From IMG/VR virus record IMGVR_UViG_3300028581_000099, positions 1-39,039 of that record: a stretch of DNA of 39,039 bases, one strand, 5' to 3'. This stretch comes from a virus. Below are positions 1 to 31,250 of this stretch, piece after piece. Under the pieces are notes generated by a model. The model was not told the DNA's origin and searched no databases. It saw only the letters and a program-made list of their open reading frames with translations. Every line of letters starts with the position of its first letter. The first letter of the stretch is position 1. The position numbers were made by a program, and so were the translations under genes.

Positions 1-249
1 GACCCCGCAGCGAACACCTGGGTTCCTGACCGCGTAGTCTGCGATGTCTTCAGCCCCAGTCCTTGTCTTACCGAAGCCGCGCCCTGCTAAGATTAGCCAG
101 ACTGTCCAGTCACCAGGAGGCGTGACCTGCTCAGGACGGGCTGTGGCCTTCCATTTAAGTCGCCAAGCAAGCAGCTCAAGGTCCGAGATCTCGAGGTGCG
201 CGAGGTTCGTCTGGATCAATGACAGTTCTTGCTTTGACAAGGCTGTCAT
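1..249 (-). CDS. terL: Terminase large subunit, N-terminal part (cut by window edge)
   Basis: This is the ATPase/nuclease motor that packages phage DNA into the procapsid. Reading leftwards from the ATG at 247-249 gives 83 codons that stay open to base 1. The visible part contains a Walker A motif, LAGRGFGKTRTGAE, near residues 53-66, preceded by WTVWLI, which is the usual TerL arrangement. The ATG overlaps the TGA of the small terminase gene (ATGA), so the two are translationally coupled. Walker B and the nuclease domain lie outside the window. The family call is firm. The packaging type (cos, pac or headful) cannot be told from this fragment. Confidence 0.93.
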   Translation of the reverse strand, partial: MTALSKQELSLIQTNLAHLEISDLELLAWRLKWKATARPEQVTPPGDWTVWLILAGRGFGKTRTGAEDIADYAVRNPGVRCGV

Positions 250-566
250 TTACTGTTTAGCTTCTCAATCAGTGCAGTGATTTGTTCTATCAGCTCGAGC
301 CGCATCTCAATGGGTCCGCCATCTGGGCCACTGATCTCGATCGACTTCTTCTTGGCGTGACCGTACTGAACCACTTCCTTGAGACAGTCTTTACGAACCA
401 TCAGATCGTGGTTAGGGTCAAAGGCCATCTCGGCAAGAGCCTCGAGTGGATCACCGTGCTTCTCGACGATCTTGTCAAAGATCTCTTGACGCTCGATGTT
501 GCGCTTATTCTGCGATCCTTTCTTGCGTCCGGATCCTTCTGGTTTAACGCCCTTCTGGAATGGCAT
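246..566 (-). CDS. terS: Putative terminase small subunit
   Basis: A 106-residue basic protein sits directly upstream of TerL and overlaps it by 4 bp. The N-terminus has the pattern PEGSGRKKGSQNKR, a Gly/Lys/Arg-rich start often seen in small phage DNA-binding and packaging proteins. A mostly helical body follows, ending in a Leu/Ile-rich helix (LELIEQITALIEKL) that could oligomerise. A good ribosome site (AAGGAG, 7 nt before ATG) supports the start. The call rests mainly on position, size and charge. No winged-helix signature is obvious, so it could be another packaging-associated protein. It is the first gene after element A and so probably the first gene of the late operon. Confidence 0.72.
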   Translation of the reverse strand: MPFQKGVKPEGSGRKKGSQNKRNIERQEIFDKIVEKHGDPLEALAEMAFDPNHDLMVRKDCLKEVVQYGHAKKKSIEISGPDGGPIEMRLELIEQITALIEKLNSK

Positions 567-637
567 AGCAGGCTCCTTAAATTCTAATTGGTTTCTATTT
601 TAGATCGTACAGCGCAATAACGTACATAGCCCTGCTC

Positions 638-799
638 AAAAACGCTATAGAGTGTTTTTTTAGGCTTAATTAGTTGTATTGAGTCATACAAGTTATTGAT
701 TTCATTCGTTCGTTCGTTCGTCTTCTAGTCCACGCAAGACTATAACTAGTTGTATTGATTCACTCTTTTTAGCCTATAAAAACCCTCTATAGTATTTTT
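638..799. repeat. Element A: 162-bp dispersed repeat with inverted arms
   Basis: It occupies the divergent intergenic region between terS (leftward) and the rightward regulator at 913. The outer arms are imperfect inverted repeats of about 28 bp, each containing CTATAGAG and an AGGCT block. Inside is a direct repeat (GTTGTATTGAGTCA near 673-686, GTTGTATTGATTCA near 750-763), about 77 bp apart. The centre has a CGTT tetranucleotide run followed by GTCTTCTAG and a small stem (GTCTT/AAGAC, 720-740). A second copy (element B) lies at 20120-20277. The left edge is 72 bp before the terS start codon, which suggests a promoter or regulator-binding role. The function is unknown. Confidence 0.8.
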
Positions 800-857
800 G
801 GGACGAGTCCACTGACAAAAGATGAGAATTTCAAGGCTCTTCACGCGCTTTGTACTA

Positions 858-912: not shown

Positions 913-1365
913 ATGTCACGTCCTGTAGAAGCAACATCGGCACTAGACTTAGACACCATTAAGCTTATTTTGTGGGCCAGTGAGTATGGTTCAGGGCACC
1001 CAAACATCAGCCGCTTGTACGATAAGGAGGCAGCCGATGGCCTGTCTCTCAGCCGCGGCACCTTTTTTAACGCAGTCAAAGGTCGTAGGGTCACGAGCCA
1101 AGTGCTTGACTCTATCGATGAGATGATCGCAATCCGCGGTTGGAGAGCCCAGTACCTCGCGCACCTTCAAGATGAGCACAAGAACAGGGTCATTCAAGCA
1201 TTCAAAAAGGCATGGACATCTTGCTCCGTATGCGGTCACGCATGCAGCAATTGTGGTGCAGCAGAGTCAGACAAGCGCAGGAAAGCAGTCACAGAGTTCT
1301 TGAAGACAGATCCATTAGACGTAGGCTGCAAGATCAAGGAAAGAGCTACGAGCCGCGAGGAATAA
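913..1365 (+). CDS. Putative DNA-binding regulator with a CxxC...CxxC zinc knuckle
   Basis: This is a 150-residue protein and one of only three rightward genes. The start at 913 is chosen because AAGGAG sits 6 nt upstream (901-906); an upstream in-frame start at 859 would overlap the promoter. The first half is helical, with a possible helix-turn-helix around SRGTFFNAVKGRRVTSQVL. Near residue 105 comes CSVCGHACSNCG, two Cys pairs that could hold one zinc ion. The C-terminus is charged. The gene faces away from element A and toward the terminator of the small-gene operon. Its isolation, orientation and the dyad upstream suggest an early or autoregulated transcription regulator, but no family was recognised. 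Confidence 0.7.
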   Translation: MSRPVEATSALDLDTIKLILWASEYGSGHPNISRLYDKEAADGLSLSRGTFFNAVKGRRVTSQVLDSIDEMIAIRGWRAQYLAHLQDEHKNRVIQAFKKAWTSCSVCGHACSNCGAAESDKRRKAVTEFLKTDPLDVGCKIKERATSREE

Positions 1366-6571: not shown

Positions 6572-6716
6572 GTTCTTCTTTCTTCTCGATGACTACGTCA
6601 CCGTGTTGGTTGATATGGTGCGGCAGCCCTAACTCTTTTGCCTTGATCAGTTCACGATACTGCGCCTTCTGATTCATCTGCTGCCATGCTTCATGGTCTT
6701 TGTCTGCTTGGTTCAT
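6552..6716 (-). CDS. Small charged protein (54 aa)
   Basis: The frame starts at 6716 in an ATGA overlap with the gene upstream. The sequence is strongly charged and helical (KDHEAWQQMNQKAQYRELI), followed by 'GLPHHINQHGDVVIEKK' and a Ser-rich end. The coding signal comes from coupling at the start and a natural composition. The 3' end overlaps the next gene by 20 bp. No function can be assigned. Confidence 0.55.
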   Translation of the reverse strand: MNQADKDHEAWQQMNQKAQYRELIKAKELGLPHHINQHGDVVIEKKEEHDISSS

Positions 6717-6865
6717 TTCTCACTTGCCTTTCTTAACTCATAAAACTCCAGTAACGCATTGGCAAACATCACAGGAAAATCGGCATCTGCATTAGCCCTA
6801 AGTAAACCTTCTGCAATACCGCTTTGGTATAAATAGATGTTGTGTATTTCTTCGTTGGTAATCAT
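6713..6865 (-). CDS. Small helical protein (50 aa)
   Basis: The start at 6865 (MITNEEIHNIYLYQSG) is chosen because it forms an ATGA overlap with the preceding gene; the longer frame to 6898 would run back into that gene. The C-terminus ends RKASEK. This is the same coding-plus-leader cassette that ends the two MNNEPVAW paralogues (RKAQEK). The protein is acidic and helical, with unknown role. Confidence 0.6.
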   Translation of the reverse strand: MITNEEIHNIYLYQSGIAEGLLRANADADFPVMFANALLEFYELRKASEK

Positions 6866-7149
6866 TTCTCTTGTGCCTTTCTTAGTAACATAATGCAATC
6901 CTGAACTTCATCCACTGCCTCGTCATGCCCAGCCTCACGCAGTAAATCTTCAGCCCATTTCAAAGTGCCAATTACTTTCACCCTATCCTCATTTGTTAGT
7001 GCTTTTACTGGACGGGTATAGAGTGGAATAGCTTTAAACCCTTTATCTTTCCAATATGGGTCACTTGGAACAGTCATGGGTTCATTCAATAAAGCCGACT
7101 GTGGCTTTCCGTCTTTAGTCCATAGCCACGCTACTGGTTCATTGTTCAT
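6862..7149 (-). CDS. MNNEPVAW-type small protein, paralogue 1 (95 aa)
   Basis: It begins MNNEPVAWLW, has IPLYTRPVKALTNEDR in the middle and ends LLRKAQEK. A second gene (7403-7684) shares the start, the IPLYT.PVK.LT block and the end, so the two are paralogues from a local duplication. Its ATG overlaps the stop of the coiled-coil gene upstream by ATGA. Proteins with this start are common small early phage genes without known function. Confidence 0.72.
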   Translation of the reverse strand: MNNEPVAWLWTKDGKPQSALLNEPMTVPSDPYWKDKGFKAIPLYTRPVKALTNEDRVKVIGTLKWAEDLLREAGHDEAVDEVQDCIMLLRKAQEK

Positions 7150-7406
7150 TTCAATAGCTCCTTTCCATAAATTAAATTTAGGTTTCTATCTAAATCTTCT
7201 TTTAAATGGTACTTATTCAATTTGGCTTTCAACGCTTCTATTTCGGCTTGTTGACTACGCACAAAAGTTTCTAGTTTATCTACATCGGCATCAGTAAGGC
7301 ATACCTTGTACTTTGTTTTATCATCAGGGTCACGGAGAAGGCGGAAGCCATGCTTATTCCCCCATATTTTTAACTCGTCAATATCCCTAAATATTTTTAC
7401 GTTCAT
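7146..7406 (-). CDS. Small coiled-coil protein (86 aa)
   Basis: It has an N-terminal alpha/beta part (VKIFRDIDELKIWGNKHGF) and a C-terminal helical coiled coil (VDKLETFVRSQQAEIEALK). It sits between the two MNNEPVAW paralogues, with ATGA overlaps on both sides, so it may have moved or duplicated with them. The function is unknown. Confidence 0.65.
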   Translation of the reverse strand: MNVKIFRDIDELKIWGNKHGFRLLRDPDDKTKYKVCLTDADVDKLETFVRSQQAEIEALKAKLNKYHLKEDLDRNLNLIYGKELLK

Positions 7407-7684
7407 TTCTCTTGTGCCTTTCTTAATATTTCCTCAACAATAAATTTAAGACCCAGCACATTGATGTCTGCTGAATTTGGATTAACACCACAACATAAAA
7501 CCATACGATGCGTAAAGTCACCTATTTCCTCATCTGTTAATTCTTTTACTGGATAAGTATAAAGTGGAATGGTTTTAGCATCACCACCTTTAAGACGGCA
7601 CAGTTCATCTGCTTCTTCTTTTGTGAAAAATAAATCATGCGGTCTTCCTTCCCATACAGCCCACGCTACTGGTTCGTTGTTCAT
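7403..7684 (-). CDS. MNNEPVAW-type small protein, paralogue 2 (93 aa)
   Basis: This is the partner of the 6862-7149 gene. It shares the MNNEPVAW start, the block IPLYTYPVKELTDEE and the end EILRKAQEK, while the middle differs. The last codons and following ATG (AGAAAGGCACAAGAGAAATG) are nearly identical in DNA to those of paralogue 1. It overlaps the UvrD-like helicase stop by ATGA. The function is unknown. Confidence 0.72.
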   Translation of the reverse strand: MNNEPVAWAVWEGRPHDLFFTKEEADELCRLKGGDAKTIPLYTYPVKELTDEEIGDFTHRMVLCCGVNPNSADINVLGLKFIVEEILRKAQEK

Positions 7685-18297: not shown

Positions 18298-19032
18298 GTG
18301 TTTAAAAAATCAAAAATGAACGAAAACGTATTTAACGATGCTTCTAAAGAAGCCCATTACTGGGCCGGTTTGATTGCTGCGGACGGCTGTTTGAGTGTGA
18401 AAAAAGGAAAATACAAAGACTATCCTTTGGTTATCATCTACCTTACCGGAGAAGATGGAAAGCACATTCAAGGACTGCTTGACTTTCTTGAAACTGACAA
18501 AAAATTGTTTACGCAAAAAGTTACCTCTGATTGGGCCAAACCAAACCAAATCAATGTAGGAACATCTTTTTGGTCTGAGCACATTTGGAACTGGCTCCAA
18601 GGTCATGGGATCACGGAAAGAAAAAGCTTGACCCTTAAAGTAAGCAGCTTGCTTGCAGATTCTCCTGATTTTTGGAGAGGAGTGGTCGACGGAGACGGAA
18701 CTGTCAACTTTGCCAAAAACAGAGGCATTAACTACCCTCACATTGGGCTTGGTGGCTCTCAAGACATGATGATTCAATTTCAGTCCTTTGTTAGTAAGCA
18801 CCTTGGAGTCACTCCCAAAGTAGGAACTTGCAGATCGATCTACAGGGTTGCCATGAATGGCCAGCCTGCTCAAGACCTGACTAGGTTCTTGTACGACAGA
18901 CCAGGGCCCGCGCTTCCTAGAAAGAAAGCTGCAGCCATGGCCTGTATTGATTGGAAAGGAAAGCATAGTAGCCGTCAGCGCAAAACTCTATTGACGCCAG
19001 ACTTAAACAGTCTCAGCGAACTCGACAGCTAA
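18298..19032 (+). CDS. LAGLIDADG homing endonuclease, free-standing, antisense to the operon
   Basis: This 244-residue protein has two LAGLIDADG motifs, WAGLIAADG (about 22-30) and FWRGVVDGDG (about 125-134), so it is a single-chain, two-motif enzyme that cuts long DNA sites. The GTG at 18298 has AAAGGA about 7 nt upstream; an ATG at 18316 is an alternative. The gene runs opposite to the operon between the methyltransferase and DUF932 genes and overlaps the DUF932 end by 30 bp, the mark of a recently inserted mobile gene. The codon pattern is more A-rich than in its neighbours. No intron or intein is seen around it. Confidence 0.9.
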   Translation: MFKKSKMNENVFNDASKEAHYWAGLIAADGCLSVKKGKYKDYPLVIIYLTGEDGKHIQGLLDFLETDKKLFTQKVTSDWAKPNQINVGTSFWSEHIWNWLQGHGITERKSLTLKVSSLLADSPDFWRGVVDGDGTVNFAKNRGINYPHIGLGGSQDMMIQFQSFVSKHLGVTPKVGTCRSIYRVAMNGQPAQDLTRFLYDRPGPALPRKKAAAMACIDWKGKHSSRQRKTLLTPDLNSLSELDS

Positions 19033-19989
19033 GTCAAGTGCCTGACGTTTACGGGTTGCTGCAGAGCCAAACCAAGCAGAAGTCAATCGCTTGTCTTGAT
19101 CTGTACCGGCTACGTGGTCGTAGTAATACGTGACTGCATTGAAAGCTCCCCACCAAGTACCGGCTGATGTTTTAAGCTCAGCACCTGGTTGGGTGTGAAC
19201 AATGTCAATGAGACGGTTTACTGTACGGCCAAGATCTGAGCGGCTTACGTTGCCGTCTTCAGAGGCAATCAGAGCAGCTTGATACTGATCAGGATTGATG
19301 AGCTTGCTAAAGAACTCCATGACTTGCTGGTCTTTGGCGCGCTTCTTAGACAAGAACTCGGCTTGGTCTTTGAATACGTCAAGGGCTTTCATAGCGAGGC
19401 CAACTTTTTCTGCTGCCTGTTGCTTGATCTCATCGCTAAAGGCGCGATCATGAGACATGCGGAAGGTAGCTTCATTGTGGGTATTGCCACGCAGAGCTTG
19501 AGTCAAGGTGTTGTTGCACACTACGCGGATCGGTGTGAACATGATCTGCAAGCTGCGACCCCAGATGTGCGGGTTATCAAGCAAGATGTATCCTTCGACT
19601 TCATCTTTGCCACCTAGCATAAAGCCGCCGTTGATCTTTGCAAGGCCCCATACGCGTTTGCCACCGTGCAAGCTGCCGGCTGTTTCCATCTTCATGTCGC
19701 CAGCTTTACAAAACTTGCTGAAGAACTCAAAGACCTCTTCATTTTGAGTCGGTGAATATTCGTTGCCGCAGATGCCGAGGATCTTGCTATCGGTATCTCT
19801 GACTAACGCGTAGTGGCTATTGATCTGCGTATCTAGATCATCTACAAACAACGCCTTTTTTTCAACGCGCCAATCAAGTTGAGCTGCCTTAAGCATCTCG
19901 ACAGGGGTCAAAGTGTCAGCGACAGGGGTACCAAGGCCGTGCCAAGGGGTCTCATTGGCGTAAGCCATCGTTTCTACTTCATGTGACAT
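19003..19989 (-). CDS. DUF932 / phage-plasmid-like protein, first gene of the replication operon
   Basis: The start at 19989 (MSHEVETMAYANETPWHGLG) is given by AAGGA and the polypurine leader; the longer frame to 20037 runs into P2. The protein has 328 residues, with the family's N-terminal 'ETPWHGLGTPV', 'YSPTQNEEVFEFF' and the centre 'RVVCNNTLTQAL'. It belongs to DUF932, widespread in phages and plasmids, with no settled biochemical role. It follows promoter block P2 and element B, so it is probably the first and strongly expressed gene. Its 3' end is overlapped by the endonuclease gene. Confidence 0.88.
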   Translation of the reverse strand: MSHEVETMAYANETPWHGLGTPVADTLTPVEMLKAAQLDWRVEKKALFVDDLDTQINSHYALVRDTDSKILGICGNEYSPTQNEEVFEFFSKFCKAGDMKMETAGSLHGGKRVWGLAKINGGFMLGGKDEVEGYILLDNPHIWGRSLQIMFTPIRVVCNNTLTQALRGNTHNEATFRMSHDRAFSDEIKQQAAEKVGLAMKALDVFKDQAEFLSKKRAKDQQVMEFFSKLINPDQYQAALIASEDGNVSRSDLGRTVNRLIDIVHTQPGAELKTSAGTWWGAFNAVTYYYDHVAGTDQDKRLTSAWFGSAATRKRQALDLAVEFAETV

Positions 19990-20030
19990 AGTAAATCCTT
20001 TCTTCTTTCTGTTTATGCAAGCAGAAGTGC

Positions 20031-20112
20031 TGTGCATGGATAGATTCTAGTGTGTAAAACCTCGTGCTTCGTGCTTTTTTAAACTATTTAAGCCTGGGAC
20101 TTATACTAGCTA
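20031..20112 (-). promoter_or_regulatory. P2: leftward promoter-like block before DUF932
   Basis: It matches P1 with the same order of parts: TAGCTAGTA, A-rich stretch, tandem repeat (AGCACGA twice, 20062-20075), GGTTTTACAC, -10-like TAGAAT (20044-20049) and CATGC. The -10 to start codon distance is 55 bp. The tandem repeat stands in the -35 zone. It lies directly left of element B. It probably starts the leftward replication operon; activity is not proven. Confidence 0.62.
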
Positions 20113-20119
20113 TTCTGCC

Positions 20120-20277
20120 AAAAACGCTATAGAGTGATTCTAGAGCCATAACAGGTTGGATTTAGTCATTTAACACTAACAGTAGGCTCGTTCGTTCGTC
20201 TTCTAGATTGCGCGAGACAATAATGGATTGGACTAATACACTCTTTTAAGGCTTCTAAAACCCTCTATAGGGGTTTT
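20120..20277. repeat. Element B: 158-bp copy of element A at the late/early operon boundary
   Basis: It aligns to element A (638-799) without gaps except one missing CGTT unit. Both ends begin or end with AAAA and CTATAGAG arms; the arms pair with each other within B (AAAACGCTATAGAG against AAAACCCCTATAGAG), as they do within A. The centre carries CGTTCGTTCGTCTTCTAG. The internal direct repeat is TTGGATTTAGTCA (20156-20168) and TTGGACTAATACA (20228-20240). The right arm forms AAAACCC-loop-GGGTTTT (20257-20277) and contains the stop codon of the 1400-residue protein. It may work as terminator, promoter region or replication signal. Confidence 0.8.
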
Positions 20278-23200
20278 GAGAATTGAGCAAGACCGCCACG
20301 AGCCTTCCTGACTAGCTCTTCTGGCTCAGTAACCCTGAACCATTGACCTTTGCCTACGGCTCCTGTATTTGGCCTCTCATACCCAGCAAAGCCGCCAGCC
20401 TTAGCAATACCCTCTAGGATAACATCCCGGCCTTGGGCTGCGTCAAATATCTCTTCACCGCGCATTGCCTGGTCTTGTGGCAGCTTATTAAAGTACCGAC
20501 GCATCAGAGCCACATCTTCTGGGCTGTATTGCTCTTCAAACTGCAGCATCCTGCCTGCCGGTATGTCAAACTGATTTACCATAGGAGGACCTGACTTGCC
20601 AAGCATCTTGTCTGTTCCGCGCTTTACCGCATAACTTGGCTCAGTCGTAACATCCATTGCCTTACCAGACTCAGGTGTGACACGTGTAGGACTTCCATGG
20701 AGGACTCTTAGAAGCTTTTCTGCAGCTGCCCTTGTCTTACCTACTCGCCCACCATCCTGGAGCCCTACGGGACCACCTAATTGAAATGGCACAGTGTACT
20801 GCACATCGTACCTGGTATCCTGGCGACTATCTTTTGGCTTAAACACCATTCCGCTGGCATAGCCTGGGCCTACTTTTTGCTCGTAGCCAAAGTTGTATCC
20901 TGAGACGTCTGTCTTTTGAGGTGACTTGTAGCCTGAAACGCCAGCCATCGCGCGCCCAGGTCCTACAGGGGTTGATGCCATAACGTTGCCTTGATAGAAT
21001 CCGTCTGGTGCTTGAGCTGGTCTATTGACACTAGCATTGACGTCCACGCCGCCCAGCTTATCTCGGTAAGCAGCAAAGAGTGCTTGCGCACTCATCATGT
21101 CACGTGTTCCTGGGTCGATGATGTTCGCTGCATTAACACCTACTGTCACAGGTCCTTTAGAGACTCCCATCTGGCCCGCTTCAATCTCCTTGCCATCTTT
21201 GTAGTGCCTCGCAGCATTCAAGACTGTCTGCACAAAAGGATCTTCTTCAAGTTCAGAGTCTGGCGTAGCCATACCACCAGCTTGGAATGGCATCGGCGTC
21301 TCTTCAGTCTCTTGCCCCTGTTCAGGAGCCGCTTGCTGAGGAGCCTGTTCCATACCAGGAATAGCTTGGACTCCTACTACAGGAGCTGCTGCAAATAACT
21401 TCTGACCTTCACCAGTAATCTTCTCGCGCATTTGTGGTGTGACATCTACTGAGAAAGCTCTTACAGAGGACCCCCTGTCGCTATCTGCAAGTCTCTTGGC
21501 TGTTTCTTCGTACAGTTCATTCTCTACGTCGGCCCATATCTGGTCTGACTCGTTTGTTTCACGAGTCATCAACTCGTCCCATTTTTGCGGATCTTCAATG
21601 TCTATACCCTGTTGGGCTGCGCGATTTGTTACCCTCTCATGTACATTTTGGTAATATTCATCTTCACCGATGTACCTGTATGGATCCTCTACAATCTCAT
21701 CTAGGTATTGCTCGTAAGACTTCCCTTGGCTAGAGAATATATCAACCTGGCCTGGTTCAGATCCAAACTCTTTTTTGGCATACTTGCCCAGGTAATTAGG
21801 AATAATCTCGTCGTAGATCTTTTTCTTGCCAATACCTTCTTTTGTAGTCATCTCAAGGTCTTGACCTTTTAGCATAGCCTGTGGACTAGGCATTACCATA
21901 CGATCGCCTTTTTGAACCATGTTTTGGCTACTCCAAGCCCTGCTTTCTTCAAGCAGCTTAACCCACTCAGCATCTTCTTCTGGAGTTAGCTTGCCTCTAA
22001 GTCTTATTGGAGAATTTTCATTGTATTTTTTAGACCACTCTTCTATCAAGCTTTCAAGCTTGTCTCCAGAATCATCCTTAGCAACAGGCCTTTCAAGTTG
22101 ACCCATAATATTTTCAGCTTTTTCCTTACCGATATAGTCGCCAAGCTCATTAGGAGCAATGTCTTTGTCAAATACAGGTCGATCGTTTTTTATGCCTTTT
22201 ATATTGATCATGCCATTTGGCGTATTTTCAGCCAGCAACGTATCAAAGTACTGATTCATGTTGTACCGCTTGACCTGCTCAGATCCTGGGGCAATGGCCA
22301 CCTTGTCATAACCTTCTTTGGCTGCCATATCAAGAATTTGTTTTAAGGCTAGCTCTTGGCTATTACTCTTAAACGGCGCGTCAGGAACACCCTTTAGTGT
22401 GTTCGTATTTAGCCACTTGTCGTATTCTTTGACTAATTGATCTTGGGCAGCTTGACCAGCAGGGGTTCCATCAACATCAAGTTCCCAACGTTCAATATAG
22501 TCTTTCAGCCATTCTTTTTGCAATACGCTCATCTTATCGCCGTGTTCCCAAAGAAGATCGTCTGCAGACATGCCTTGATACATATTCATTGGCTTTGCAT
22601 AAGCGACATCTTTAGGAACTGTCTTTGAAAATTCTTCAGTGGCTTTTCTAGTAAGGTCGTCTAGGATACTTTTTCTAAGAGCTCTGTTCGCAGGTGTGTT
22701 TTCAACAGCCCCAAGCCTATCTAGCTCGGCTGTTGTCTGCCTTTCAATATCGGGCAGTCTACGAGTCATCTCATCTTTAATATATCTGTCTCGTTCTTTG
22801 CGGGCACTTTGGTGCCAGTCAGACTGAATCTCTTCAACATACAAAATCTTTTCACCGTTAGGGCCCGTGCGGTCAGTTACCCTTGCATGCACCAATACGT
22901 TAGGATCATCAAAATGACCTGACTGATATACTTTATCAGAATTTTCAAATACTTCATCTATGTGAAGGGTGATTCCAAGTCTTGACTGCATGTCCTCAAG
23001 CATCCTGACTGCGTCAACGCCTCCCTCGTTTAATATCCTCACTTGATCTTCGTCAAGAGGTTCGTAACCGCGGTTACTTAGTCGATAATTAACTAGAGTT
23101 GTCGCCTTTTCCTTTGGAATAAATTTATCTTCCTTCTCTAACTGAAGTAATACCTCGCGATAATTTTTACCTCCTGGAGTCGTATATTTTTCAAACTTGG

Positions 23201-24467
23201 CGTGTCTTTGATCCATCAAAAATTGATTGTTGATGTCATCTGCAAGAATCTTGGCACTTGTTAAAAGTTCATATTCTTCTCTTGAAAAATTGGTGATAGT
23301 ATACTCAATCAACTCTTTTGCTTGATCTTCAGATATATCTCCAGACTTTTCTAAAGCAATTAGTTCATCGACTCTTGGGTTTTCAAGCCAAAAGTCAGCG
23401 GGCGTCATTGTCTTAAGAACGCTATTATCAATAATGTCACCGGTCTTATTGATCCTAAATCCGAACATTCTAGGATCTTCTGGGTTTACAACAGGCTCTA
23501 TGCCGACTTTGTTTAGTAGTTCTTTTTGCTTGTCAGTTAGCTTTGGTTGCCAGTTCGGATCAACACCTCCACCAAGAATAATAGGCTTGATACGAGGAGC
23601 AGGCGACTCAGCAGCCAGCGCCCTAACTTCGTCTTGGGTAATAGATTTTTTATCTTTAAGCTTTTCACGTATCTTCCGAAGCTCAAGTTCCTCTTTCTTA
23701 ACACCAGGAGCTTTTTCAATCTCCTTGAGGATCTGCTCTCCAGTTCCTTTTTTCTGTTTTAAGGTGTCGATGGCCTTGTCAACGGCAGAGAAGAACGACT
23801 TGACCTTACCAACCTTGCCGCCGTCTTCGTACTTTTGAATCAAGCCGCCAAGAGCCTTCTTGACCGGATCTTCTTCAAGCATCTCGCCGACTGTGCCAAT
23901 GGTTCCACCAAAACCTGTACCTACCGCATAATTGATCTTCTTAGGATCTACTGTAGGGCTTAGATATTCAACAGGAGAGGCGGCTATCTTGCCAGCAACT
24001 CCAAGCTCCTTGACAGGAGTCAATACACGTTTTAACCAAGCGCCTGGAATAGGGGCCTGGGCGAGCATCTCTCCACCTGCATTTGCAAAGTGTTCAAGAG
24101 CTCCTTTAGGGGCTTCAATGCCCATGTCTCTACGAATAGCATCTCTGATTCTGCCGGCCTTTTTATCGGCCTCTACAGCAAACTCAGGAGCGTATTTGTC
24201 ATCAACAATACCTGCCAATGCAGGAATAGCCACGGTGTTGTAATAGATTCCAGGGGTTCCTTTACCAACGCCAACCTTGCCTTCATCATCAATACCAGAC
24301 CACTGGCTTCTAAAGCCAGAGATTGCTTGCTTTGCTGCTCTTACAGGAGCCGATTCTTTTTTGCCCTCTAGCTGCTTAGTCAAGGACTTCATGCCCTTGA
24401 CCGTATCTGCTAGGTTCTTTTCTTTCTTGCCCTCGTACTTATCTTTAAGGTTGTCAAGATCAGCCAT
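20265..24467 (-). CDS. Giant ejection-type/polyvalent virion protein (1400 aa), possible C-terminal ART-like domain
   Basis: This is the last gene of the late operon. The N-terminal third is basic and helical. The middle (roughly 500-750) carries LYVEEIQSDWHQSARKE and later ELALKQILDMAAKEGYDKV, a pair of blocks typical of large polyvalent phage proteins that are injected with DNA. Residues about 1090-1240 have many alternating short strands (VTVGVNAANI, AMAGVSGYK, YDVQYTVPF), like a membrane beta-barrel fragment. Residues 1253-1392 start LRVLHGSP and continue TTEPSYA, resembling an ADP-ribosyltransferase fold, but the catalytic Glu is not certain. Gly-rich motifs (GGKVGK, QDGGRVGK) separate parts. 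It probably enters the host cell. Enzyme activity is inferred. Confidence 0.75.
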   Translation of the reverse strand: MADLDNLKDKYEGKKEKNLADTVKGMKSLTKQLEGKKESAPVRAAKQAISGFRSQWSGIDDEGKVGVGKGTPGIYYNTVAIPALAGIVDDKYAPEFAVEADKKAGRIRDAIRRDMGIEAPKGALEHFANAGGEMLAQAPIPGAWLKRVLTPVKELGVAGKIAASPVEYLSPTVDPKKINYAVGTGFGGTIGTVGEMLEEDPVKKALGGLIQKYEDGGKVGKVKSFFSAVDKAIDTLKQKKGTGEQILKEIEKAPGVKKEELELRKIREKLKDKKSITQDEVRALAAESPAPRIKPIILGGGVDPNWQPKLTDKQKELLNKVGIEPVVNPEDPRMFGFRINKTGDIIDNSVLKTMTPADFWLENPRVDELIALEKSGDISEDQAKELIEYTITNFSREEYELLTSAKILADDINNQFLMDQRHAKFEKYTTPGGKNYREVLLQLEKEDKFIPKEKATTLVNYRLSNRGYEPLDEDQVRILNEGGVDAVRMLEDMQSRLGITLHIDEVFENSDKVYQSGHFDDPNVLVHARVTDRTGPNGEKILYVEEIQSDWHQSARKERDRYIKDEMTRRLPDIERQTTAELDRLGAVENTPANRALRKSILDDLTRKATEEFSKTVPKDVAYAKPMNMYQGMSADDLLWEHGDKMSVLQKEWLKDYIERWELDVDGTPAGQAAQDQLVKEYDKWLNTNTLKGVPDAPFKSNSQELALKQILDMAAKEGYDKVAIAPGSEQVKRYNMNQYFDTLLAENTPNGMINIKGIKNDRPVFDKDIAPNELGDYIGKEKAENIMGQLERPVAKDDSGDKLESLIEEWSKKYNENSPIRLRGKLTPEEDAEWVKLLEESRAWSSQNMVQKGDRMVMPSPQAMLKGQDLEMTTKEGIGKKKIYDEIIPNYLGKYAKKEFGSEPGQVDIFSSQGKSYEQYLDEIVEDPYRYIGEDEYYQNVHERVTNRAAQQGIDIEDPQKWDELMTRETNESDQIWADVENELYEETAKRLADSDRGSSVRAFSVDVTPQMREKITGEGQKLFAAAPVVGVQAIPGMEQAPQQAAPEQGQETEETPMPFQAGGMATPDSELEEDPFVQTVLNAARHYKDGKEIEAGQMGVSKGPVTVGVNAANIIDPGTRDMMSAQALFAAYRDKLGGVDVNASVNRPAQAPDGFYQGNVMASTPVGPGRAMAGVSGYKSPQKTDVSGYNFGYEQKVGPGYASGMVFKPKDSRQDTRYDVQYTVPFQLGGPVGLQDGGRVGKTRAAAEKLLRVLHGSPTRVTPESGKAMDVTTEPSYAVKRGTDKMLGKSGPPMVNQFDIPAGRMLQFEEQYSPEDVALMRRYFNKLPQDQAMRGEEIFDAAQGRDVILEGIAKAGGFAGYERPNTGAVGKGQWFRVTEPEELVRKARGGLAQFSKPL

Positions 24468-29288: not shown

Positions 29289-31250
29289 TTAGACTCCCTT
29301 CAAGTAAGACAATGGACTCTTGGCATCTTCACTTATCTTGCCTTGAGCTAGGTTACGACCTTTTTGACGCCTGATCTGTTCACGCATCTGTTCAAGACGG
29401 TTTGCACCTGCCTCAGAAGATCCATTGCCTAACAAGGCCACTGTCTCTGCGTCAAATACATATTCACCATCAGACAAGACCGCATCAACGTCATCAGATC
29501 TACCGTCTGCACCACCGCCTACACTATAGCTTCTTACCATGTTCATGGCTCCGCCAGCTGACATACCTTTTGGAGGTGTGCCATACTGGTAGTAAGAAGT
29601 TCTAGGATTGCGGTTTACAGGTTGAGGACGACCTTGTGGCGTACCCTGCGGCATACCCTGCGGCATACCCTGTTGACGACCTTGTGGCATTCCACCGCCT
29701 GCAGGAGGCATGTTGCCTGTTTGCATGGCTTGGTTCAAACCTCCGCGCATCGGCATTCCGCGTCCCATACCACCGGAAGGCATTCCTGTTTGCATCATGC
29801 GTGGGTTCATTGGGGCAGCTTGACCACCATTAGCATACGCCTGCTTCATCTGAATCAGTCCACCCATGGCTGCTGCCTTAGGAACCAATTCAAATTTTGA
29901 AGGAGTAAAGAACTGGTGCTCACCACCTTTTTGACCGTATTGATAGATGTCGTCGCCATAATTTTGTTGGCTTCGCAAATAGTTATACAAGTCCATAGGA
30001 CGATTAAAGTTAGGATCTTGAGTGCTAGAAGTAGAGGCTGGCTGTTCGTAACCAGATCCGCCCTGACTTAACGCACCTGCTGCAAGCGTAATACCTGCAA
30101 GCGTTGTCAGCGGATTGTCCATTGCGTAATCAACCACTTTTCCTGCAACGCCTTTTAGGTCTCCTGAGTTGATGTCGCTAAACTCAAAACTCTTAAGCTT
30201 ATCAGTGAGTGTCTTAGGCAAAGGAGCTGTGCCAGGAAGTGCAGGAGGTAGTGCTTCTGGAGTTGGTGTAAAGCCAAACTCTCCTACTGTTCCTGACGGC
30301 GTGGCATTGCCGTAAACGTCTATGCCCTCGCCGAACCAAGAATCTGTTGTTCCACGAATTGATGGATCAAGACTGTCCATGCTGTAGCGGAATTCAGGAA
30401 GTCCGGCAACTTCAGAAGTTAACCCTGTCCCACCCATCGAGTTGATGTAAGGAGAAGAAGGCTGCTGGATACCAAATCCACTTTGCCCTTGACCTGGTGG
30501 CTTAAGGCTAAAACCAGAATCTGGAGCAGGCGGCTCTAAAGACAATTGATTTAGCGGGCTTATCTCAGGTGCTACCGGAGGAACTACTGGAGGAACTACA
30601 TCATCTGCTATTCCCGGCAATTGGTTAATGACGTCTCCAAGAGGATCTACAGCTCCACTGCCTGCAGTAGGATCGATAGCTGGGATGTCAAAGTTAGCCC
30701 CCATGTTAAGACCTTCACCACTAGGAGTGAACGCACCACCTGGAACATTGGCTCCTCCACCGGCTGCTACAGATGAGTCCACAGGAGGCAATTCAAAACT
30801 AGCTCCTAGGTCTATTCCTTCTCCACTAGGAGTGAACGCACCACCTCCTTCAGGTATAGCGCCCCCTGGAGTGGAAAAGTAATCAAATGCACCTTGAGTG
30901 GCTCCTGCAGTTACGCCTGCAATAAGCCCGCCTTTGATTGCTTCGTCAAAATCTTCACCTTGAACTAAACCGGCAGCTGTATTACCGGCAGCGGCTCCAA
31001 GTCCTGCACCGACCGCTCCTGCGGCGGCTCCAAATGCCCCCAGTGACGGGAGCATTGCAGGCCCTAAGATCGCTGCTCCTGCAACCGTAGCAACGGCTGT
31101 TATTGGGTCATCAAGGATAGGCTGAATGACGTAATCGTCAATTGCGCTGCCTACATCACTAAGAGCACCACCTACATCTTCAACTGCATCTCCTACTGAC
31201 TCAACAACGCCGCCAATGGCATCACTAATTGCTGAAACGACTCCACCCAT
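29289..31250 (-). CDS. Gly/Pro-rich membrane-active virion protein (653 aa)
   Basis: The N-terminus has an acidic amphipathic segment and a long Gly-zipper hydrophobic region (AAILGPAMLPSLGAFGAAAG) that can enter a membrane. The middle holds two near-identical units GGAFTPSGEG(I/L)(D/N)(L/M)GA and many Pro residues. Later come Met-Gln-Gly repeats (MPQG, residues about 525-540). The C-terminus carries GRSDDVDAVLSDGEYVFDAET, a conserved block seen in ejection-type proteins of environmental phages, then a basic helix. It probably acts during DNA entry, at the host inner membrane. Repeat content makes it variable. Confidence 0.66.
   Translation of the reverse strand: MGGVVSAISDAIGGVVESVGDAVEDVGGALSDVGSAIDDYVIQPILDDPITAVATVAGAAILGPAMLPSLGAFGAAAGAVGAGLGAAAGNTAAGLVQGEDFDEAIKGGLIAGVTAGATQGAFDYFSTPGGAIPEGGGAFTPSGEGIDLGASFELPPVDSSVAAGGGANVPGGAFTPSGEGLNMGANFDIPAIDPTAGSGAVDPLGDVINQLPGIADDVVPPVVPPVAPEISPLNQLSLEPPAPDSGFSLKPPGQGQSGFGIQQPSSPYINSMGGTGLTSEVAGLPEFRYSMDSLDPSIRGTTDSWFGEGIDVYGNATPSGTVGEFGFTPTPEALPPALPGTAPLPKTLTDKLKSFEFSDINSGDLKGVAGKVVDYAMDNPLTTLAGITLAAGALSQGGSGYEQPASTSSTQDPNFNRPMDLYNYLRSQQNYGDDIYQYGQKGGEHQFFTPSKFELVPKAAAMGGLIQMKQAYANGGQAAPMNPRMMQTGMPSGGMGRGMPMRGGLNQAMQTGNMPPAGGGMPQGRQQGMPQGMPQGTPQGRPQPVNRNPRTSYYQYGTPPKGMSAGGAMNMVRSYSVGGGADGRSDDVDAVLSDGEYVFDAETVALLGNGSSEAGANRLEQMREQIRRQKGRNLAQGKISEDAKSPLSYLKGV

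Follow-up and report, generated by a model that had tools for sequence, protein, structure and literature searches.

We asked what purpose is served by two similar stretches of about 160 bp, each of which heads one of the two transcription units of an uncultured tailed phage. The window, that is, the whole stretch of DNA that was analyzed, is a 39,039-bp fragment of a freshwater-type phage (IMG/VR record IMGVR_UViG_3300028581_000099), and the full gene layout is visible in four near-complete relatives of 55 to 58 kb (G003, G004, G016, and G017). The minus strand holds nearly all the genes, arranged as a late unit, which begins with a TerS-like gene, takes in those for terminase, portal, capsid, and tail, and finishes with the gene at 20265-24467, and an early unit, which leads from a DUF932 gene to the genes for deaminase, thymidylate synthase, polymerase, primase, and helicases. 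Element A stands at the head of the late (terminase) operon and element B at the head of the early (replication) operon, while beside A, running opposite to the two units, lies the gene of an orphan protein, here called Reg. No hint of the host was found, the primase having no relative in the bacterial genomes searched. The genes next to the elements are the following.

246-566, minus strand: TerS-like gene that opens the late operon and lies downstream of A (phrog_15261; adjoins the terminase large gene).
913-1365, plus strand: gene of Reg, an orphan protein of about 150 amino acids and candidate cognate of the P2 sites listed below (alignment, model, and correlations).
19003-20037, minus strand: DUF932 gene that opens the early/replication operon and lies downstream of B (protein scans).

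A preliminary description of this DNA had given the position and content of both elements correctly and had aligned them without gaps except for one CGTT unit. The two share two ungapped blocks, one of 51 nt with 78% identity and the other of 94 nt with 76%, and the block offsets, 19482 and 19478, differ by the four bases of that unit. Taking their natural ends, CAAAA...TTTTG, A extends over 637-800 and B over 20119-20278. Since they gave the top two scores in a scan of the window for long imperfect inverted repeats (26 for A and 25 for B), well above the next best (16), they are not a chance finding. The left edges precede the start codons of leftward operons as described earlier, that of A lying 71 bp before TerS and that of B 82 bp before DUF932. 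The parts of the two elements are as follows.

637-800, minus strand: element A, between the divergent TerS and Reg genes (alignment and inverted-repeat scan).
637-659: outer site P1 of A, TerS side, CAAAAACGCTATAGAGTGTTTTT (its CTATAG is nearly invariant in 58 elements).
666-685: inner site P2 of A, TerS side, TTAATTAGTTGTATTGAGTC (sequence and family alignment).
686-705: AT-rich spacer of A (21 ± 1.2 nt in the family).
706-722: core of A, tandem CGTT on the plus strand (CGAA on the gene strand).
741-769: third half-site (M) and inner P2 of A, Reg side, jointly an imperfect palindrome of about 26 bp.
779-800: outer site P1 of A, Reg side, AAAACCCTCTATAGTATTTTTG.
20119-20278, minus strand: element B, between the end of the late operon and the head of the early operon (alignment and inverted-repeat scan).
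20119-20138: outer site P1 of B, DUF932 side.
20148-20168: inner site P2 of B, DUF932 side, CATAACAGGTTGGATTTAGTC.
20188-20200: core of B, TCGTTCGTTCGTC.
20220-20247: third half-site (M) and inner P2 of B, late side.
20258-20278: outer site P1 of B, late side, AAACCCTCTATAGGGGTTTTG.

The last late gene (20265-24467) reaches into B, its stop codon being the TAG of a CTATAG (20265-20267).

Copies at the same sites were found throughout one uncultured phage genus, and whole-record searches gave exactly two per genome wherever both sites were covered. Relatives fetched via the DUF932 gene had B at the identical site, and those fetched via TerS had A wherever the contig covered the site. Among primase relatives, the elements were present at 83% identity or above on contigs reaching a site and absent below 50%. 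The exact core CGTTCGTTCGTCTTCTAG was present in three further contigs. The named isolates 023Pt_psg01 and DSL-LC04 (first 50 kb) showed no comparable inverted repeat, and the upstream regions of distant DUF932-bearing phages were unrelated. In five genomes scanned, no single arm occurred away from the two sites, giving exactly four arms per genome. The preliminary description had taken the pair for a shared regulatory or replication signal of an undescribed kind and had made this depend on related phages keeping it in place; close relatives do carry elements at both sites, and we retain that view.

In one clade defined by Reg (L140, L141, L151, L153, L164, L165, and near copies), A has the opposite orientation but keeps its place and its neighbors. 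An inversion, terminal inverted repeats, and the presence of two copies are what a small nonautonomous (MITE-like) mobile element would show, but the copies occupy the same two sites across the genus and never others, their flanks have no target duplications, and no transposase was recognized, so that we hardly credit this explanation at all.

The anatomy of the family was determined from an alignment of 58 distinct elements. The element is near-symmetric, and its orientation was read in all cases from the CGAA core, with L140 and L141 assigned by hand. Each arm includes the outer site CTATAG and the inner palindromic P2; the interval separating the two arms holds a conserved (CGAA)n core together with an AT-rich spacer. 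The arm consensus was CAAAA-A-C-[GC]-CTATAG...TTTTT-A-G-[GC]-C-[AT]-[AT]-AACAGAGTGTATCAATAC, and the left and right consensus sequences agreed at nearly every conserved column. The center of CTATAG was 33 bp from the center of P2 in both arms (standard deviation, 0.3 to 0.4), and the core was 30 ± 1.2 bp from the right P2, freely variable length being confined to the part that separates the third half-site from the core. The left P2 together with the third half-site forms an imperfect palindrome, and the right P2 is palindromic in its center only. The core was the most conserved segment, with a mean pairwise identity of 87%; the adjoining spacer of 21 nt, 80% AT, had an identity of 44%, its length and composition being conserved but not its sequence. 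Inverted arms held at a fixed spacing suggest a bridged complex.

Inverted arms could equally be the stem of an RNA, and RNA of either strand is predicted to fold strongly (z scores of about -5.4 and -5.6). The elements would then encode a long hairpin, either as a separate small RNA or as an RNA acting in cis, such as an antiterminator. Two similar copies at the heads of the main transcription units recall putL and putR of phage HK022, two similar RNAs of about 70 nt that start the two main early transcription units and act in cis within the transcript (PMC9378689). The variation of the arms was that of DNA, however. Pairing mismatches between the arms comprised 112 G-U and 124 A-C combinations (71 and 101 in a reduced set), and since selection on an RNA made from one strand would strongly favor G-U, the arms do not behave as an RNA stem. 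The outer, CTATAG part showed no covariation within the element (observed, 0.737; permuted, 0.732; P = 0.38). Both results, together with the inversion of A in place, led us to reject the RNA hairpin. No consistent hairpin was found in the core, and Rfam gave no match at the gathering threshold and chance-level matches only at a relaxed E value. Unlike the put sites, A lies upstream of promoters, which were found on both its sides, and we regard an RNA role of any kind as improbable.

The inner, P2 part did covary within the element (0.699, versus 0.616 permuted; P < 1e-4). The preliminary description had noted that the arms change between elements and yet stay complementary within each, which is borne out for P2 and fails for CTATAG. 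Its further step, selection on the dyad as such, did not survive, since covariation is limited to the inner sites and there extends over both elements, with no asymmetry between G-U and A-C. Within a genome, arms taken one from A and one from B match as closely as two arms of a single element, which points to shared sites of one trans-acting protein, or to gene conversion between the sites, and not to base pairing.

Alignment of the flanks revealed -10-like boxes beside A in both directions and beside B on its early side; a consensus promoter scan of the window, used by itself, called none of them. The promoter of TerS is placed as follows.

570-628, minus strand: sigma70-like promoter of TerS, TGTACG-18-TAAAAT (by alignment, not by consensus scan).

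In most relatives 46 to 47 bp separate the -10 region of TerS from the last CTATAG, a distance that in rare cases is lengthened by insertions of about 30 bp; at B, the distance from CTATAG to the -10-like box was mostly 79 to 89 bp and in one case 144 bp. The promoter spacing tolerates insertions of about 30 to 65 bp. A palindromic motif like GCTRGTANNNGTCCYAGC is found just past B in nearly all relatives (20093-20111 in the window), and a similar one occurs in L164/L167 and L168 within the insertions, about 30 bp long, that part A from the TerS promoter; another regulator may use it as its operator. A short GC-rich hairpin followed by TTTT immediately precedes the -10-like box at B (20057-20080) and has a counterpart in the same place in about 16 relatives, 55 to 71 nt past B on the coding strand (122 nt in one), with many G-U pairs. 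This hairpin is weak in the present window; it may terminate late transcription once B has been read through.

The preliminary description had also brought up a phage RNA polymerase promoter. The CTATAG sites would in that case be outward-facing promoters of a phage-encoded or virion single-subunit enzyme; CTATAG is nearly invariant, and the element end TCACTCTATAGGG resembles the end of the T7 promoter, CACTATAGGG. However, scans of the large proteins against PHROGs recognized no such enzyme (a search with PF00940 was uninformative, its controls also being without a match), half of the CTATAG sites would transcribe antisense, and no isolated CTATAG arms were found elsewhere. The early unit, moreover, closes with a canonical intrinsic terminator (1389-1370), which is consistent with the host RNA polymerase. 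We regard this proposal as very unlikely.

The protein named in the preliminary description as a possible binder, the 913-1365 product Reg, emerged from the correlations with P2 as the best candidate. The element was located 65 to 906 bp upstream of Reg in all 47 Reg loci on viral contigs. A model of Reg built from 31 aligned homologs, of modest to low confidence (pLDDT 65.7), has predicted helices at residues 13-25, 32-41, 48-55, 62-75, and 77-98, whose order and size appear HTH-like by inspection. The helical region is followed by a conserved CxxC...CxxC, and the two CxxC pairs look like a zinc-binding knuckle. The family phrog_2328 (transcriptional repressor) was weakly matched by 16 of the 31 members (best E value, 4.4e-4). 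Pfam, PDB sequence, and fold searches returned nothing useful, and Reg had no match in named phages and was not found outside the genus.

The divergence of the P2 sites was then compared with that of Reg and other proteins by Mantel tests, which are liberal for related genomes and here comprised several comparisons, those for B being based on 10 or 11 genomes. Over 31 A loci, the distance between P2 sites of A correlated with the distance between Reg proteins at r = 0.72 (partial correlation given TerS, 0.70), compared with 0.27 for TerS, the gene on the other side. The correlation was best for Reg residues 29-75, the HTH region (0.74), and lower for the C terminus (0.55); given TerS, the respective values were 0.72 and 0.50. 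Leaving out the divergent inverted clade, the signal was still 0.61. In the comparison that took in B as well, the value for A was 0.74. The P2 sites of B, 17 to 20 kb away from Reg, correlated with Reg at 0.63 in 11 genomes, against 0.28 for Pol, 0.25 for DUF932, and 0.26 for TerS. The P2 sites of A and B correlated with each other at 0.66, and at 0.40 once the Reg HTH region was accounted for. For the outer sites of B, no such link with Reg was seen after correction for Pol. Reg ranked first in a scan of the early-module genes. In a wider gene scan, from which an antisense frame within Reg was set aside, a variable late gene (687 amino acids) scored about as well as Reg, in seven genomes only; in the same seven genomes, the values were 0.83/0.63 for Reg and 0.72/0.54 for the late gene. 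That late gene is a homolog of the window gene 29289-31250, inside which two 80-bp direct repeats are found 105 bp apart (30662-30846).

The inverted copies of A form one clade on the Reg tree (support, 99/95) but are scattered on the TerS tree, where four changes are needed, at least two of them forced by well-supported branches; Reg and A have thus moved together against TerS. The TerS and Reg trees disagree, although the genes are less than 400 bp apart in the window, a conflict that suggests recombination within or close to element A.

Holding the same two positions and changing in step with Reg, which probably grips them, the elements have the appearance of a switch, or of replication start points, for the whole genus. 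We give about an even chance to the reading that A and B are Reg-bound DNA control sites switching the two operons. They would act as double-stranded DNA, one at the head of each transcription unit, with Reg binding the inner palindromic P2 in both arms of both elements and a second factor recognizing CTATAG at the outer sites. Being inverted and rigidly spaced, the arms would be bridged around the CGAA core and the bendable AT spacer into a compact nucleoprotein complex, presumably by looping. Such a complex could set the nearby sigma70-like promoters, those of the late operon (TerS) and of Reg itself at A and that of the early operon (DUF932) at B, and in this way coordinate the change from early to late expression, if that is the direction in which the regulation works.

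Regulators with coevolving operators are already known. In Cluster A mycobacteriophages, a DNA-binding phage repressor and its stoperator sites diverge together between relatives (PMC6550527), and Reg and its putative sites resemble this and the lambda-type OL/OR systems in that regulator and sites diverge together; here, the regulator and the adjacent site appear to move as a cassette. Unlike the many single 13-bp sites of Cluster A, the sites here are two compound 160-bp elements of mirrored arms, and unlike known repressors, Reg shares no detectable sequence family beyond the weak match above, and no integrase or lysogeny gene was recognized among the proteins scanned.

Several points count against a switch: the low confidence of the Reg model, the weak repressor match, the small number of genomes compared for B, the late gene that scored nearly as well as Reg, and the insertions tolerated between element and promoter. 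In addition, the AT-rich spacer and the core, both conserved, have the look of an origin as well. The rival we take most seriously is that A and B are paired replication origins, or an origin and a fork-stalling site, with Reg as the origin-binding protein and the AT spacer as the DNA unwinding element. Next to the most conserved core, at both sites, the spacer is kept in length and composition and not in sequence; the element occurs in either orientation at A, and Reg adjoins A. Paired phage origins are likewise known. The lytic Bacillus phage SPP1 has oriL and oriR about 13 kb apart, each with direct repeats and an AT-rich region and both bound by one phage protein, gp38 (PMC6316719). A and B resemble them as two similarly built AT-rich sites many kilobases apart with a single candidate phage protein for both, but the SPP1 origins are made of direct repeats and an unwinding element, whereas A and B, known from sequence, have inverted arms around a core and stand each at an operon head. 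Origins would not require one element per transcription-unit head, and Reg is more like a repressor than like an initiator. The GC skew at fourfold sites did not change sign at A or B in the four near-complete genomes, which is weak evidence against origins. Taken together, these points make paired origins possible but on the unlikely side. As to its magnitude, the skew on the coding strand in these genomes was about -0.1 across most of the early unit; in the late unit, and in the 5 kb that directly follow B, it was about -0.3.

The transcription-switch and origin roles could coexist in the same elements. Rather unlikely, in our opinion, is a scheme going further, in which one orphan protein and the paired 160-bp mirror-armed elements would serve as transcription switch and paired origins at once, the protein and its adjacent site being swapped between phages as a specificity cassette and the distant second site following. 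The probability left over is shared by the RNA, the RNA polymerase promoter, the mobile element, and explanations that we have not thought of.

The element family itself, with its mirrored compound arms, fixed placement at two sites, and orphan partner, had no match in the libraries and literature searched. With it, a whole uncultured aquatic phage genus is given a control element, conserved and hitherto undescribed, along with the protein that is probably its partner, and the early/late switch of such phages becomes testable from sequence alone. With regard to method, hairpin-like inverted arms can be told from RNA by the symmetry of their mismatches and by covariation across loci.

One further observation concerns the small genes of the early unit. 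Gene ends and upstream segments are repeated at 6713-6898, 6862-7149, and 7403-7684, which suggests that a small early gene, about 95 codons long, has been duplicated.
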